Positions 399-12,839 of a stretch of 12,839 nt of DNA are shown here, in pieces; the stretch's first letter is position 1; each line of letters starts with the position of its first letter. The notes under the pieces were generated by a model, which worked only from the letters and a program-made list of their open reading frames with translations, did no database searches and had not been told where the DNA came from. The translations under genes and the position numbers were made by a program. The DNA is from Pseudomonadota bacterium. GTDB lineage: Bacteria; Myxococcota; Polyangia; Polyangiales; Polyangiaceae. The DNA lies in contig JAEZYO010000460.1 of NCBI GenBank assembly GCA_023419055.1, positions 1-12,839 on the forward strand, given 5' to 3'.

Positions 399-884
399 CT
401 AAGGCGCCGGGACGGTGTTGGCTCGCCCGGAGCCCGGCTTGTCCGCCGGAGCCGCAGCTGCGCCGGCGGGCGCCTCTTCGAGCTCCGGCTGCACCAGCAG
501 ATTCAACGATTCGACGCCGCTGTTGCGCGCCGCGGCCACGACCTCCGCGACGGTGCCGTAGCGGGCCTCTTTGTCGGCGCGGATGTAGAGCTCGCGCTCC
601 TTCTGCACGCGCGGGTTCTGCTTCAGCGCGTCGTCGATGCGCCCCGTGACGTCGTCCTCGCCGAACAAGATGCGCTCGTCCTTGGTCACGGTGACGAGGA
701 GGCGCGCGTCCTTCACCGGCGTCTGCGCGGCCTGCACCTCGGGGAGGTCGATGCGCAGCCCCGTCGTCAGGAGCGGCGCCGTCACCATGAAGACGATGAG
801 CAGCACCAGCATGACGTCGACCAACGGCGTGACGTTGATGTCGCGGAACCCGCCGCGCCGTCGCCCGCCGAGGGCCATCCCCAT
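399..884 (-). CDS. tolR: TolR/ExbD family proton-channel subunit
   Basis: The 161-residue protein has the family layout: short cytoplasmic N-terminus with the motif [18 protein letters not shown] (from residue 15), one membrane helix (about 21-37), then a periplasmic domain of about 100 residues. Asp23 in the helix matches the proton-carrying Asp of ExbD/TolR. With TolQ/ExbB it forms the proton-driven inner-membrane motor that energises TonB/TolA. An AGGGAGG ribosome site lies just upstream of the ATG at 884 and overlaps the end of tolQ; the gap to the tolQ stop is 3 bp. The last 30 or so residues are Ala/Pro-rich and look disordered, an extension beyond the usual E. coli length. The name tolR rather than exbD rests on the adjacent pal gene. 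Confidence 0.93.
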
Positions 885-887
885 GGG

Positions 888-1619
888 TTAAGCGCCTCCC
901 TGGACGGGGAACCGCTGATCGCGCGTGAGCGGGACCGGGGGCGTTTCGCCCTGCAGGCGCTCGCCCGCCAGCATCTCCACCCAGACCTCGCTCGACGCTT
1001 GCAGCTCCTCGAGCAAGTCGCCCAGGCGCTTGTCGACGAAGTTGTAGCCGATGGTGGCGGGGATGGCGGCGACGAGGCCGAAGGCGGTGGCGATCAGGGC
1101 CTCGCCGATGGCGGGCGCGACGACCGGGAGAGACGCGCTCTTCTCCACGCCGATGCGCAAGAAGGCGTCCATGATGCCCCACACCGTGCCGAACAGGCCG
1201 ATGAAGGGCGAGGCCGAGGCGATGCTCGAGAGCGACGGCATCAACACGCTGGCCCGCTGCTGCTCGGCGGCGATCGCGCGCTTCGCGACGGCGTTCAAGA
1301 AGTCGGCGGTGCCGCCGCCCTGACGGCGGCGCTTGCCGAGCTCGAGCACCACGCGAGCGCCCGGCGCGCTCTGGTAGCGGCTCGCGAGCTCGAGCAGCTC
1401 GGGCCCTCGCTCCGCGCGCGCAGCCGCTTGCTCGAACGTGCGATTTTGCGCGAACAAGCGGCTAAGCTGCGCGGATTTCAAGAACCAGATCACCCACACC
1501 GCGAGCGAGGCCAGCACCAGGATCAGGAGCACGACCAACACGACTCCGGACGAGCCGAGCGCGAGGTCGACGGGGTTCAGCGAGGTGTGCGCGGGCGCGC
1601 TTGCGGGCGTTTCGGGCAT
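888..1619 (-). CDS. tolQ: TolQ/ExbB family motor subunit
   Basis: The 243-residue inner-membrane protein has three predicted helices at about residues 25-47, 134-156 and 168-192, and a cytoplasmic loop of about 85 residues between the first two, as in TolQ/ExbB. The family signatures are visible: [17 protein letters not shown] in helix 2 and [18 protein letters not shown] in helix 3, which line the proton path together with TolR. The ATG at 1619 lies 15 bp after the pal stop; no good Shine-Dalgarno is seen, so coupling to pal is likely. It forms the pentamer-type base of the motor in this family. Membership of the family is clear; the choice of TolQ over ExbB comes from the order pal-tolQ-tolR. 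Confidence 0.94.
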
Positions 1620-1634
1620 GAGTGACCGTTCGGG

Positions 1635-2165
1635 TTACTGTCCCAGCACGATGTCGACGCGGCGGTCCTCGACCCAACCCGCTTCGTCCGTGCCCGTGGC
1701 GTCCATTTCACCCCGCGAGGTGGAGCTCACCTTCGCCTGATCCATCCCGGCGGTGATGATCGCGCCCTTGACGTTGTCGGCGCGGCGACCGCCGAGCAGC
1801 ATGTTGTACTCGTCCTCGCCGCGCGGATCCGCGTGGCCGACGAGGTTCATCTGCCGGCCCTTGAGCGGGCCCGTCGTGAAGCACGCGGCGAGCTTCTTCA
1901 GCACGGCGCGATCGCTTTCTCGCACCGAGTCCGAGTCGTAGGCGAAGTGAGCGTCGGCGTCGGTGAGGCCGCACGCCTTCTTGATGTCCTCCGAAATCCG
2001 GATGCTGCTCTTGTTCGGATTGTCGTCGGGCTTGGGGTTGTCCGCGGCCGGCGCGGGCGCCGGTTGCGGCGCGGGCTCCGTGGCCACGGGGGCCTGGGCG
2101 GGGGGCGGGGGTTCCGATCCGCAGGCGATCAGGCAGGGAAGCAGAGCTAGGGCGAAAATTCTCAT
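1635..2165 (-). CDS. pal: Pal-like peptidoglycan-associated lipoprotein
   Basis: The 176-residue protein begins with a lipoprotein signal ending in LIAC, so Cys15 should be lipidated and anchor it in the outer membrane. Residues 16-55 form a Pro/Ala/Asp-rich linker. Residues 72-175 are an OmpA-C domain with the peptidoglycan-binding signature GHADPRGEDEYN (110-121) and GGRRADNV (125-132); Asp113 and Arg128 are 15 apart, as in the diaminopimelate-binding pair of OmpA-type domains. Cys65 and Cys95 could form a disulfide. The start is secure: an AGGAGG ribosome site (2173-2178) sits 7 bp before the ATG. It is the first gene of the operon and links the outer membrane to the cell wall and Tol motor. 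No tolB is visible near it. Confidence 0.93.
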   Translation of the reverse strand: MRIFALALLPCLIACGSEPPPPAQAPVATEPAPQPAPAPAADNPKPDDNPNKSSIRISEDIKKACGLTDADAHFAYDSDSVRESDRAVLKKLAACFTTGPLKGRQMNLVGHADPRGEDEYNMLLGGRRADNVKGAIITAGMDQAKVSSTSRGEMDATGTDEAGWVEDRRVDIVLGQ

Positions 2166-2383: not shown

Positions 2384-2731
2384 TCACGGAACACTCGACT
2401 GCAGGTAGGCCAACAGGCCAATCGTCGCGGCGACGAAGAGCGCGATCAGCGCGTAGGCGGCGCTCCGGTTGCGCGCGCGGCGATCGGGGGATCGCAGCAC
2501 TTCGAGCTTCGTCATCGCCAGCACCGTGATCGCGCCGAGGCGCTTTTCTGCGCTGGGCCCGCGTTCGTGGTCGCCTTTCATCCCGCGGTAGCGCACCGCC
2601 GCCTCGACCAGACGATCTCGTTCCTGGCAGTAGTCGATGAAGGCGCGGTGCGCGGCGTCGTCGTCCCAGTGCTCGATCGTCTTCTTCCAGAGGGCTTCGA
2701 GGACGGGATCGCGATCGCTACCGGAGCTCAC
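2384..2731 (-). CDS. Small unknown protein with a C-terminal membrane anchor
   Basis: The 115-residue protein starts at a GTG (2729-2731); a TGA two codons upstream in the same frame excludes a longer form. Residues 1-80 are predicted helical and soluble, with the pattern LWKKTIEHWDDDAAHRAFIDY and AAVRYR resembling small two- or three-helix proteins. Residues 92-110 form one hydrophobic helix followed by only five residues, the layout of a tail-anchored membrane protein with its bulk in the cytoplasm. It is the last gene of a three-gene unit, 26 bp after the cysteine-rich gene. I recognise no named family. It could tether the partners upstream to the membrane, but that is only inference from gene order. 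Confidence 0.75.
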   Translation of the reverse strand: MSSGSDRDPVLEALWKKTIEHWDDDAAHRAFIDYCQERDRLVEAAVRYRGMKGDHERGPSAEKRLGAITVLAMTKLEVLRSPDRRARNRSAAYALIALFVAATIGLLAYLQSSVP

Positions 2732-2757: not shown

Positions 2758-3183
2758 TCAGAGCCGGAGCTCTTTGACGAGCTTCTGCGTGATGAGGAAA
2801 TACTCTCGGCGACCGTAGGGCTCGTTCAGGATGTGGTAGTCGCGACCGCTCAGGCCGACGCACCCGAAGCAGTAGGTCGAGCTCGTCATCGACACGCAGC
2901 GCACGAGGTACGAGCTCGACGAGCAGTTCTCGCAGTCCGTGCAGTGCTGGCAGCCGACCAGACCGCGCGAACCCCGGCAGTGCGAGCAGTCGGTGCAGAG
3001 CGCGCACTTCACGCAGAAATGGCAGCGGATCAGGCGCTCCGAATCCTTGCAGAACGTGCTCTGAGAGCAGGAGACGCAGCGCTCGCACTCGACGCAGCGC
3101 TCGTTGCCGCGATCCTTGCCGACGCTCTGCACCAGCTCTCGAAAGCGGGCCTCGAAGGCGCGCGCGGAAAGCTCTTCGCTCAT
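2758..3183 (-). CDS. Cysteine-rich three-residue-periodic repeat protein, function unknown
   Basis: The 141-residue protein carries 18 cysteines, all between residues 30 and 108 and all at positions divisible by three. It has a charged, probably helical N-terminus (1-28), then runs of CxxCxxCxxC separated by SxxL spacers, and a C-terminal part GCVGLSGRDYHILNEPYGRR (107-126) ending in a helix. The start ATG at 3183 is 2 bp after the upstream stop, indicating an operon with the basic protein before it and the membrane-anchored protein after it. There is no signal peptide, so it is presumably cytoplasmic, where the cysteines would be reduced or bind metal. The C-terminal motif reminds me of uncharacterised Cys-repeat proteins seen in other bacteria, but I cannot name the family. 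A metal-binding protein or a Cys-lined solenoid are the two readings. Confidence 0.8.
   Translation of the reverse strand: MSEELSARAFEARFRELVQSVGKDRGNERCVECERCVSCSQSTFCKDSERLIRCHFCVKCALCTDCSHCRGSRGLVGCQHCTDCENCSSSSYLVRCVSMTSSTYCFGCVGLSGRDYHILNEPYGRREYFLITQKLVKELRL
2851..3096 (-). repeat. Cys/Ser/Leu triplet repeat array inside the cysteine-rich gene
   Basis: Residues 30-113 form 28 consecutive triplets whose first residue is always Cys, Ser, Leu or Met. Read as blocks these are two 24-residue units starting at Cys30 and Cys54, each ending with Ser-x-x-Leu, then two 18-residue units starting at Cys78 and Cys96. Block junctions follow the pattern Cys-x8-Cys (45 to 54, 69 to 78, 87 to 96, 96 to 105). 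Confidence 0.75.
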
Positions 3184-3185
3184 GA

Positions 3186-3878
3186 TCAGGTCCTGAGCCC
3201 CCGCCGGAGCTCGGAGGCGCTCGCGCGCGTGGCCTCGTCCTCTGCCGTGTCTTCGAGGCGCTTCAAGCGCTGCTCGAGCACCGGACGCTTCAACACCGGC
3301 TCGACCGCGAGCAGCGCGGAGAGGTGCGAGATGGCTTCCCGGATGACCTCTTCGTCGAGGTGCTCCAGCAGCTTGAGCTGCACCGCCTGCTCGCGCGGGT
3401 ACTCGAAGTTCTGCGAGCGGTAGTCGCTCGCGGCTCGCGTGACCGCGGCGCGGCCCTCGCTGCCGAGCAGCCGCGACAGCAGGCGCTCGCGTTCGCGCTC
3501 TCGCTGATCGATGCTCGACTCAGTCGGCTTGACGATTCGCGCAACCCGCTTGGGTGACTGCGCGACGCTCGCCTTCTCGCCCTCCGCCGCGGCCTTTTCG
3601 GCGTCGAGCGGCGGCAGTGAGTCGCGCTTGGTCTTGGGCGCGGCCGAGGCGCTCGCGCGCGCCTTCACGTAGAGCGGAGAGTTCGGGCGACGCGCCGCGA
3701 TCAGCACCGGCTCCGGCGCTGATCGGCGGTTCTGCGAGCGTCGCCGCGCTCCTGCCTTCGGGGGTTGCCCTTTGCGCTGGCCGTCCGCCCTCGCGTTCGA
3801 CACTGGCTTGTCCCTACCTTGACCCTGCTGCCTGCGGCTCAAGCTCGACGTTTCCTTTCGTCGGTTCGGCGCGGACAT
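3186..3878 (-). CDS. Basic, partly disordered unknown protein with helical C-terminus
   Basis: The 230-residue protein has three parts. Residues 1-55 are rich in Arg, Lys, Gln and Ser and lack hydrophobic clusters, as in nucleic-acid-binding tails. Residues 56-120 are a charged, Ala/Pro-containing linker. Residues 122-230 begin with an Arg/Glu-alternating segment and continue as amphipathic helices (for example EEVIREAISHLSALL at 176-190), possibly a small HEAT-like or coiled-coil domain. The start ATG at 3878 is preceded by an in-frame TAG seven codons upstream, so it is the only good start, though no clear ribosome site is seen. It is the first gene of the three-gene unit, 2 bp before the cysteine-rich gene. 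RNA or DNA binding is a guess from charge. No family recognised. Confidence 0.75.
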   Translation of the reverse strand: MSAPNRRKETSSLSRRQQGQGRDKPVSNARADGQRKGQPPKAGARRRSQNRRSAPEPVLIAARRPNSPLYVKARASASAAPKTKRDSLPPLDAEKAAAEGEKASVAQSPKRVARIVKPTESSIDQRERERERLLSRLLGSEGRAAVTRAASDYRSQNFEYPREQAVQLKLLEHLDEEVIREAISHLSALLAVEPVLKRPVLEQRLKRLEDTAEDEATRASASELRRGLRT

Positions 3879-11879: not shown

Positions 11880-12839
11880 CTACTTGCCCTTCTTCTTCAC
11901 GGGAGCCGGGGCCTTCTTGGCGGGCGGCGCCTTCTTGGCGGCGGGCGACGCCTTCGGGGCTGCCTTCTTGGCCGGCGCCTTCGATGGCGGAGCCGCGGCC
12001 GCCGGCGCCTTCTTGGCCGGACCTTTCTTGGCGGGAGCCGGCGCCTTCTTGGCGGTGGGAGGTGCCTTCGCGGGCGCCTTCTTGGCCGGAGCTTTCTTGG
12101 CGGGAGCCGGCGCCTTCTTGGCGGCGGGGGCGGGCTTCGCAGGCGGCGCCTTCTTGGCGGGCGGCGCCTTCTTGGCCGGAGGGGCCTTGGGTGCCGGAGT
12201 AGCCTTCGCGGGTGCCTTCTTGGCGGGCGGCGCCTTTGCAGCCGGTGCTTTCTTGGCCGGAGGGGCCTTGGGCGCCGGAGCAGCCTTCACGGGTGCCTTC
12301 TTGGCGGGCGGCGCCTCCTTCTTGGCCGGAGGGGCTTTGGGCGCTGCCGCCTTGGCGGCTTTGGGCGTTGCCGCTTCAGGCGCCGGAGCAGCCTTGGCGG
12401 GTGCCTTCTTGGCCGGCGGAGCCTTGGGTGCGGGGGCCGCCTTCGCGGCGGGAGCCTTGGGCGCAGGCGCTGCCTTCTTGGCCGGCGGAGTCTTGGGTGC
12501 GGGAGCCGCCTTGGCGGGTGCCGGCTCCTTGGCTGCGGCTGCTTTCGGCTCGACCTTCTTCACGGGTGCAGCCTTCTTGGGCGGCGCCTTCGCTTCAGGC
12601 TTCGACTTCTTTGCGGGCGCTTCGTCCTCGTCCTCGTCGCCTTCGTCCTCGTCGAGATCTTCGTCCTCGTCTTCTTCGTCGAGGTCTTCGTCTTCTTCTT
12701 CGAGGTCCTCGTCCTCTTCGTCTTCGTCGACGGGCTTCGACGCCTTCGGCTTCGAGGCTTGCGGCTTCGACGCTTTCGCCGTCGCCTTGGGAGCGGGCGC
12801 TTCGTCCTCGTCTTCTTCGTCGAGGTCTTCGTCTTCTTC
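11880..12839 (-). CDS. Acidic-then-H1-like Lys/Ala/Pro-rich protein, C-terminal 319 residues (N-terminus outside)
   Basis: The frame is open from the right edge to the TAG at 11880-11882; the GTG at 12563 sits inside it and is not a convincing start. From the edge inward the visible protein has an acidic block, a short Ala/Lys/Ser segment, a second, longer acidic block of Asp/Glu with a few Leu (about 12620-12731), then about 230 residues made almost only of Ala, Lys and Pro in repeats such as PPAKKAP. Such tails resemble eukaryotic histone H1 C-terminal domains and bacterial H1-like proteins, and bind DNA or RNA without fixed structure. A folded domain may lie upstream. CarD of Myxococcus also joins an acidic block to a basic chromatin-like tail, so a related regulator is possible. 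Other options are a topoisomerase or ribosome-associated protein with such a tail. Confidence 0.85.
11890..12560 (-). repeat. Degenerate tandem array coding PAKKAP-type units
   Basis: The core GGCGCCTTCTTGGC and its variants recur throughout, encoding Ala-Lys-Lys-Ala-Pro motifs in one frame. Unit length varies (roughly 5 to 13 codons), so it is an imprecise array likely to expand or contract by recombination. Confidence 0.75.
12659..12698 (-). repeat. 40-bp direct repeat, copy 1 (acidic block)
   Basis: These 40 bases are identical to 12800-12839. The offset is 141 bp, exactly 47 codons, so the two copies encode the same acidic peptide. It points to an internal duplication of the acidic block. 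Confidence 0.8.
12800..12839 (-). repeat. 40-bp direct repeat, copy 2 (cut by the window edge)
   Basis: Identical to 12659-12698 over all visible bases; the match may extend past the right edge. Preceding bases (GCGGGCGC) also match those before a third acidic stretch near 12613. Confidence 0.8.

Follow-up and report, generated by a model that had tools for sequence, protein, structure and literature searches.

The window, as we call the whole stretch of 12,839 nucleotides analyzed here, encodes a 141-aa protein (2758..3183, minus strand) in which Cys, Ser or Leu stands at every third residue over most of the chain. This pattern was real and family-wide, and the explanation that suits it best is a beta-solenoid of the kind known from the Tenebrio antifreeze protein, with these residues as its core ladder. 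The fold itself, built of 12-residue coils, was predicted and is very probably right. We propose that the protein may serve as a cytosolic docking or assembly module, an explanation for which, taken as a whole, we see roughly equal chances of being right and wrong.

The ORF ran from an ATG at 3183-3181 to a TGA at 2760-2758. A preliminary description of this DNA had located the ORF correctly and left its strand unstated; it lies on the minus strand. The GC contents at the three codon positions were 0.54, 0.50 and 0.89, a pattern typical of genuine genes in GC-rich genomes. Together with the homologues found by phmmer (94) and by a profile search (894), this made the ORF look like a real gene and ruled out a wrong-frame or chance ORF; the overlapping plus-strand ORF at 2833-3423 was taken as its shadow. 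All 18 cysteines of the translation (30, 33, 36, 39, 45, 54, 57, 60, 63, 66, 69, 78, 81, 84, 87, 96, 105, and 108) fell in one register of positions divisible by three, as the preliminary description had stated. The 28 register sites from 30 to 111 were occupied by 18 Cys, 5 Ser, 4 Leu, and 1 Met, and the run was bounded by Asn at site 27 and Arg at site 114; its described length of 84 positions holds in whole triplets, the first and last sites spanning 82 residues. If 18 Cys were scattered randomly over residues 30-108, all would share one register with a probability of 2.8e-11; the earlier estimate of 8e-9 had rightly called the match improbable and was too high. The highest 19-residue Kyte-Doolittle mean was 1.16, at residue 93, a hydropathy value that agrees with the reported lack of a signal peptide. 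The protein is probably cytosolic.

A phmmer search yielded 94 homologues among 100 candidates. A profile built from 47 of 95 sequences then gave 894 homologues among 1626 candidates, of which the best 120 were listed. Relatives were encoded in 261 of the 268 pattern-matching stretches of genome contigs, 80 of which formed the locus set; by their titles, 72 loci belonged to a Myxococcota taxon, seven to Deltaproteobacteria or a delta proteobacterium, and one (L007) to Proteobacteria. Of 282 sampled genomes of the phylum to which Sorangium belongs, at least 68 had a match, one per genome, a lower bound since at most 14 candidates were scored per genome and genome completeness was not given; with E values of 3e-13 to 3e-4, three of the 68 matches were weak or partial. 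One copy each was also present in six genomes chosen from the loci. Among viral contigs, 55 stretches matched the pattern and none of them encoded a relative.

No model of Pfam, NCBIfam or PADLOC significantly matched the window protein, and the only PHROGs match was to an unnamed phage family. A literature search, judged by titles and the starts of abstracts, found no paper on this family or its function. The earlier statement that no family known by name was matched is only partly right: it holds for these libraries and does not extend to the fold, which resembles the beetle antifreeze protein, or to the C-terminal cap, which recurs in Patescibacteria. In Pfam at E <= 10, P0001 had only an insignificant LPD1 match. 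The Sorangium homologue P0125 carries the name 'caib/baif family protein', as does a protein of this kind in BFVD, H6SUK4 of Campylobacter virus IBB35. P0125 had no Pfam family at E <= 10, so it lacked a CoA-transferase family III domain and CaiB/BaiF CoA-transferase was rejected; the name is apparently a spreading misannotation.

The register was kept in the homologues, and so the preliminary description withstood a refuting condition of its own, loss of the three-residue register in relatives. Counted without alignment, 2522 of the 2539 Cys in 145 family proteins stood in the main register of their own protein, and in 131 of these proteins all of them did. Alignment was limited to 137 of the 145, with lengths of 130-175 residues, the eight shorter or longer ones being left out. 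Residues 27-117 of this alignment contained 2410 Cys in register and 11 off it, and residues 27-128 showed no gap or insertion relative to the window protein in any sequence. Sites at 3 mod 6 were mainly Cys or Leu (1215 Cys, 593 Leu, 43 Ser, and 7 Ala of 1918) and sites at 0 mod 6 mainly Cys or Ser (1192 Cys, 680 Ser, and 3 Leu of 1918), an alternation expected if every 12 residues form two strands and two turns. Leu occupied strand sites 51, 75, 93, and 111 in 135, 125, 130, and 130 of the 137 proteins, respectively. The repeat units of 24, 24, 18, and 18 residues proposed earlier were not the natural ones; the data pointed to 12-residue coils, each made of two 6-residue halves.

AlphaFold2 predicted a beta-solenoid for the window protein, with mean pLDDT values of 78.0, 72.2, 66.4, 65.3, and 64.4 for the five models. 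In the prediction and the alignment, the solenoid covers residues 31-112 (2848..3093, minus strand) in about seven 12-residue coils, with the 3 mod 6 sites (Cys/Leu) on strands and the 0 mod 6 sites (Cys/Ser) in turns. It would be flanked by an N-terminal helix (residues 7-20; 3124..3165, minus strand; block pLDDT 67-70), in which F10 and L17 were invariant in the 137 aligned proteins, and by a C-terminal helix (residues 125-137; 2773..2811, minus strand; block pLDDT 59-62). Over-prediction of beta-solenoids by AlphaFold2 for perfect repeats is described in one report (PMC11795689); according to its abstract, AlphaFold 3 and other programs are free of this bias. The coils of the window protein shared only 0-5 of their 12 residues. 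The solenoid with an inward ladder of Cys, Ser, and Leu suggested in the preliminary description is thus backed by the structure prediction, the fold match, and the periods of 6 and 12 residues.

The best fold and profile match of the family was the antifreeze protein of Tenebrio molitor (1EZG, 1L1I; thermal hysteresis protein YL-1), which has in common with the predicted fold a beta-solenoid of 12-residue coils with every third residue inward. Foldseek alone gave no PDB match at E <= 0.001; 1L1I ranked sixth (E 0.058) and 1EZG thirteenth (E 0.16), with unrelated chains ahead of them, and the profile match to 1EZG included a composition bias term of 31.1 bits. Compared with the beetle protein, the window family places Leu at a number of strand sites and Cys in its turn columns, carries a Phe/Tyr/His stripe, a cap and terminal helices, and is bacterial and probably cytosolic. 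In Vibrio phage 1.238.B, a protein with CxxC triplets (L081, 2863-3237) carries the annotation 'insect antifreeze protein' and an InterPro entry; the pipeline of its annotator thus arrived at the same fold link.

From the second coil on, one residue per coil formed an outward aromatic and His stripe consisting of F44, F56, H68, H80, Y92, and Y104 (2872..3054, minus strand). At this phase of 12, Phe, Tyr, Trp or His made up 99.4% of the residues (weighted, residues 43-106), compared with 0.8-19.7% at the other seven non-register phases. Residue 44 was Phe in all 137 proteins; residue 56 was Tyr in 99, Phe in 36, and His in 2; residues 68 and 80 were His in 134 and 135; residue 92 was Tyr in 135 and Phe in 2; and residue 104 was Tyr in 136 and Phe in 1. 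All six were present in 132 of the 137 proteins. At the same phase in the first coil (E32), Glu (98) or Gln (19) prevailed, which indicated that the stripe begins in the second coil. Mean conservation was 4.19 bits at the stripe phase versus 1.85-2.05 bits at the four phases that make up the face on the other side, where V109 and G110 belong to the conserved cap. As we read the profile alignment, the TxT face of 1EZG corresponds to the side of the solenoid that faces away from the stripe.

The C-terminal cap (residues 103-129, TYCFGCVGLSGRDYHILNEPYGRREYF; 2797..2877, minus strand) was shared with proteins of Patescibacteria, in which the pattern FGC-x-x-L...K-x-Y...N...Y also followed coils with the Cys register. 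A search with the consensus of a Patescibacteria protein matched 7324 of the 7997 scored candidates at E <= 1e-3; the best 120 of the 7324 were examined, and the organisms named among them were Patescibacteria, Peregrinibacteria, Peribacteria/Peribacteraceae, Gracilibacteria, and Abawacabacteria. When 38 of these 120 proteins were compared with the window family by hhalign, the last coils and the cap aligned over 56 columns (probability 98.5, E 4e-15). A regular expression for the cap, which misses 39 of the 145 Myxococcota and 13 of the 120 Patescibacteria proteins, occurred once in 68 and twice in 39 of the latter (107/120 with a cap), and in the 60 residues upstream of 146 such caps 1060 of 1228 Cys stood in a shared register. 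These best 120 proteins were much larger (516-567 aa versus 141 aa), with extra N- and C-terminal domains and a looser register; some had PF13451 or PF23477, and they were named hypothetical protein or Zn ribbon nucleic-acid-binding protein. Treble-clef matches were found at the C-terminal end in three of the four scanned and at the N-terminal end in one, with one match above the cut-off; in Pfam, the window protein matched no such large domains with treble clefs. In the predicted structure of one Patescibacteria protein, 12-spaced strands preceded the second cap (353-380, block pLDDT 82-93), and the first solenoid region was poorly predicted (131-230, block pLDDT 61-69). This model had no useful PDB match (best E 2.8).

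Weaker similarity extended to viruses. The profile of phrog_15341 matched the window protein at E 3.7e-6, and CxxCxxC proteins of Campylobacter and Vibrio phages were weaker relatives (best tblastn E 6e-4). Like the window family, these phage proteins have Cys at every third residue; three of them, inspected by eye, had Cys at nearly every register site, charged or polar flanks and no cap. A protein of Mimiviridae ChoanoV1 in BFVD (A0A5B8IEK9, labelled TNFR-Cys) matched the model with 35% identity (E 3.7e-9) and may be another weaker relative; Cys-rich matches to phage and giant-virus proteins can also arise by convergence. In Flavobacterium phage FL-1 (L083), a 234-aa ORF at 1300-2004 contained CSDCSGC triplets and its start resembled the Vibrio phage protein P0146; the annotated CDS at 1412-1756, with APIAPV repeats, may be in the wrong frame.

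Gene neighbors were counted in 81 loci including the window, 78 with at least 900 bases of upstream flank and 72 with at least 1500 bases of downstream flank, with probes drawn from the very loci counted. Upstream, 2 bases from the solenoid gene, the window has a gene for a 230-aa protein (3186..3878, minus strand) with, by eye, a basic start and a helical C-terminal half; its family lay on the same strand, near or overlapping the start of the solenoid gene, in 41 of 78 loci, and it had no Pfam family. Downstream is a gene for a 115-aa protein (2384..2731, minus strand) with one C-terminal membrane segment by eye and no Pfam family above its cut-off; 47 of 72 loci had a gene for such a small membrane protein downstream in the same orientation. 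Likewise downstream and co-oriented, a D-aminoacyl-tRNA deacylase gene was present in 38 of 72, e.g., L032 and L030 (PF02580 in two scanned). One of these two downstream genes was present in 62 of 72 loci and both in 23, and for each neighbor family the best match within 2.5 kb always kept its strand and side. In the window, the solenoid gene is accompanied by the upstream gene and the membrane protein gene, with no deacylase gene between. Loci L071, L075, and L078 lacked the usual neighbors and, judged by reading the sequences, adjoined helicase- or methyltransferase-like genes, which indicated that the gene context is not universal.

Elsewhere in the window, TolR-, TolQ-, and Pal-like genes lay downstream of the solenoid gene (399-2165, minus strand), with relatives in 22, 22, and 20 of 80 loci, short-flank loci included; two of the TolR and TolQ matches were weak and on the other strand. 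A 227-aa low-complexity ORF at 11880-12563 (minus strand) was rich in Lys, Ala, and Pro and histone H1-like. Scans of the window for tRNAs, for Rfam families at gathering score, and for PADLOC matches were all negative.

Several explanations place the function in the cysteines themselves. Register-site Cys (30-111) numbered 15-21 in 136 of the 137 aligned proteins and 13 in one, with odd numbers in 69 and even numbers in 68. The strand column beneath the stripe was Cys in 135 (C33), 137 (C45), 137 (C57), 130 (C69), 127 (C81), and 131 (C105) proteins, near-invariant and broken only at site 93, and strand-site Cys was rarely replaced by Ser or Ala. These features would suit a metal or thiol store, in which the ladder would hold Cu(I), Zn or an iron-sulfur species along the axis of the solenoid, as a beta counterpart of the helical copper-storage proteins. 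Such a store is nevertheless unlikely: turn-site Cys exchanged with Ser, the number of Cys varied, no metal-handling Pfam family was found among the subset of neighbors scanned, and the core of antifreeze-type solenoids is narrow. Copper-storage proteins (Csp) are four-helix bundles lined with Cys, whereas the window protein is a beta-solenoid by prediction and so would not have the Csp fold. The polymetal scaffold of the preliminary description was likewise disfavored by the turn-site exchange (1192 Cys and 680 Ser), the range of 13-21 Cys per protein, and the lack of a zinc-finger Pfam match. The strand sites, with 1215 Cys against 43 Ser and 7 Ala, may do something beyond packing, and the rarity of these replacements leaves room for a metal or redox role. 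One form of it, which we consider quite improbable, would make the column 33, 45, 57, 69, and 81 a working thiol or metal wire in the cytosol, i.e., a stack of reduced Cys, one per rung, that holds a Cu(I) chain or relays thiol exchange to a stripe-bound partner. Tenebrio-type antifreeze proteins have a cross-core disulfide in each coil, and a redox switch would keep such Cys pairs reduced in the cytosol and lock them by disulfides under oxidative stress, as in the beetle protein, turning binding on or off. Cys six apart did recur in some but not every coil (33/39, 57/63, and 81/87, or, in the other possible pairing, 39/45 and 63/69), with both Cys present in 130, 125, and 110 of 137 proteins in the one pairing and in 132 and 119 in the other. 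Were a disulfide required in every coil, the two Cys of a pair should vanish together. In the same order, one Cys was lost in 7, 12, 25, 5, and 17 proteins and both in 0, 0, 2 (1.4 expected), 0, and 1 (0.6 expected), a test of five pairs with both pairings counted that is weak for its few losses (both lost 0-2, expected 0-1.4). The single losses at all five pairs (5 to 25 of 137) showed that one Cys can be lost while its partner stays, several strand Cys adjoined Leu sites (51, 75, 93, and 111), and no oxidant-response family was found among the neighbors scanned. A redox switch is therefore distinctly unlikely, even though the fold relative is disulfide-bonded and the losses were too few to exclude pairing.

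A conventional array of zinc ribbons or knuckles would account for the CxxC spacing and for the treble-clef matches in the Patescibacteria relatives, one of them above the cut-off. It was rejected, and we regard it as very improbable, because no zinc-finger Pfam family matched the window protein; the C/S exchange, the strict gap-free periods of 3, 6, and 12 residues, and the beta-solenoid prediction also argue against it. An antifreeze or ice-nucleating protein would fit the best fold and profile match and has otherwise next to no chance. TxT is the ice-binding motif, and the Tenebrio protein has a TxT face; around the strand sites of the window family TxT occurred at only 5 of 1918, so no TxT array forms on one face, and on these sequence counts antifreeze activity was rejected. 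Neither was there any sign of a signal peptide, and the stripe lies opposite the TxT face.

We favor the docking or assembly module. Its roughly seven 12-residue coils would stack into a flattened beta-solenoid like that of the beetle antifreeze protein, in which every third side chain points inward, Cys and Leu from two strand columns and Cys and Ser from two turn columns. The core would be a packing ladder, probably of free thiols, with neither an obligatory disulfide set nor metal sites. The function would then lie outside, where the six-rung Phe/Tyr/His stripe on one face and the conserved C-terminal cap may dock a second copy of the protein or a partner, perhaps the product of a neighboring gene, although the neighbor genes are missing from a share of the loci. 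For the ice-nucleation protein of Pseudomonas borealis, a solvent-exposed tyrosine ladder was proposed from modelling as a dimer interface, in a report that also notes the internal serine ladder of the Tenebrio protein (PMC3196904); by analogy, this could be a precedent for docking. As modelled there, the ice-nucleation protein shares a beta-helix, inner ladders and an outward aromatic ladder with the window protein but is an outer-membrane protein with ice-active faces, and the likeness is one of modelled structure. The stripe may instead only pack on the protein's own N- or C-terminal helix (block pLDDT 59-70). The docking explanation keeps its standing despite the weak disulfide test since its main supports are the register, the periods, and the stripe.

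For the window family and the Patescibacteria proteins alike, no function was described in the four domain libraries or the literature searched. Here a fold known from a beetle antifreeze protein turns up in a protein that is single-copy, probably cytosolic and present in roughly one in four genomes sampled from one phylum (at least 68 of 282). Large Patescibacteria proteins share its cap, and 7324 clustered proteins matched the query built on them. The 141-aa protein offers a compact model for the role of solenoids with Cys at every third residue inside cells, and for asking whether free thiols are enough to sustain a fold known in disulfide-bonded form.
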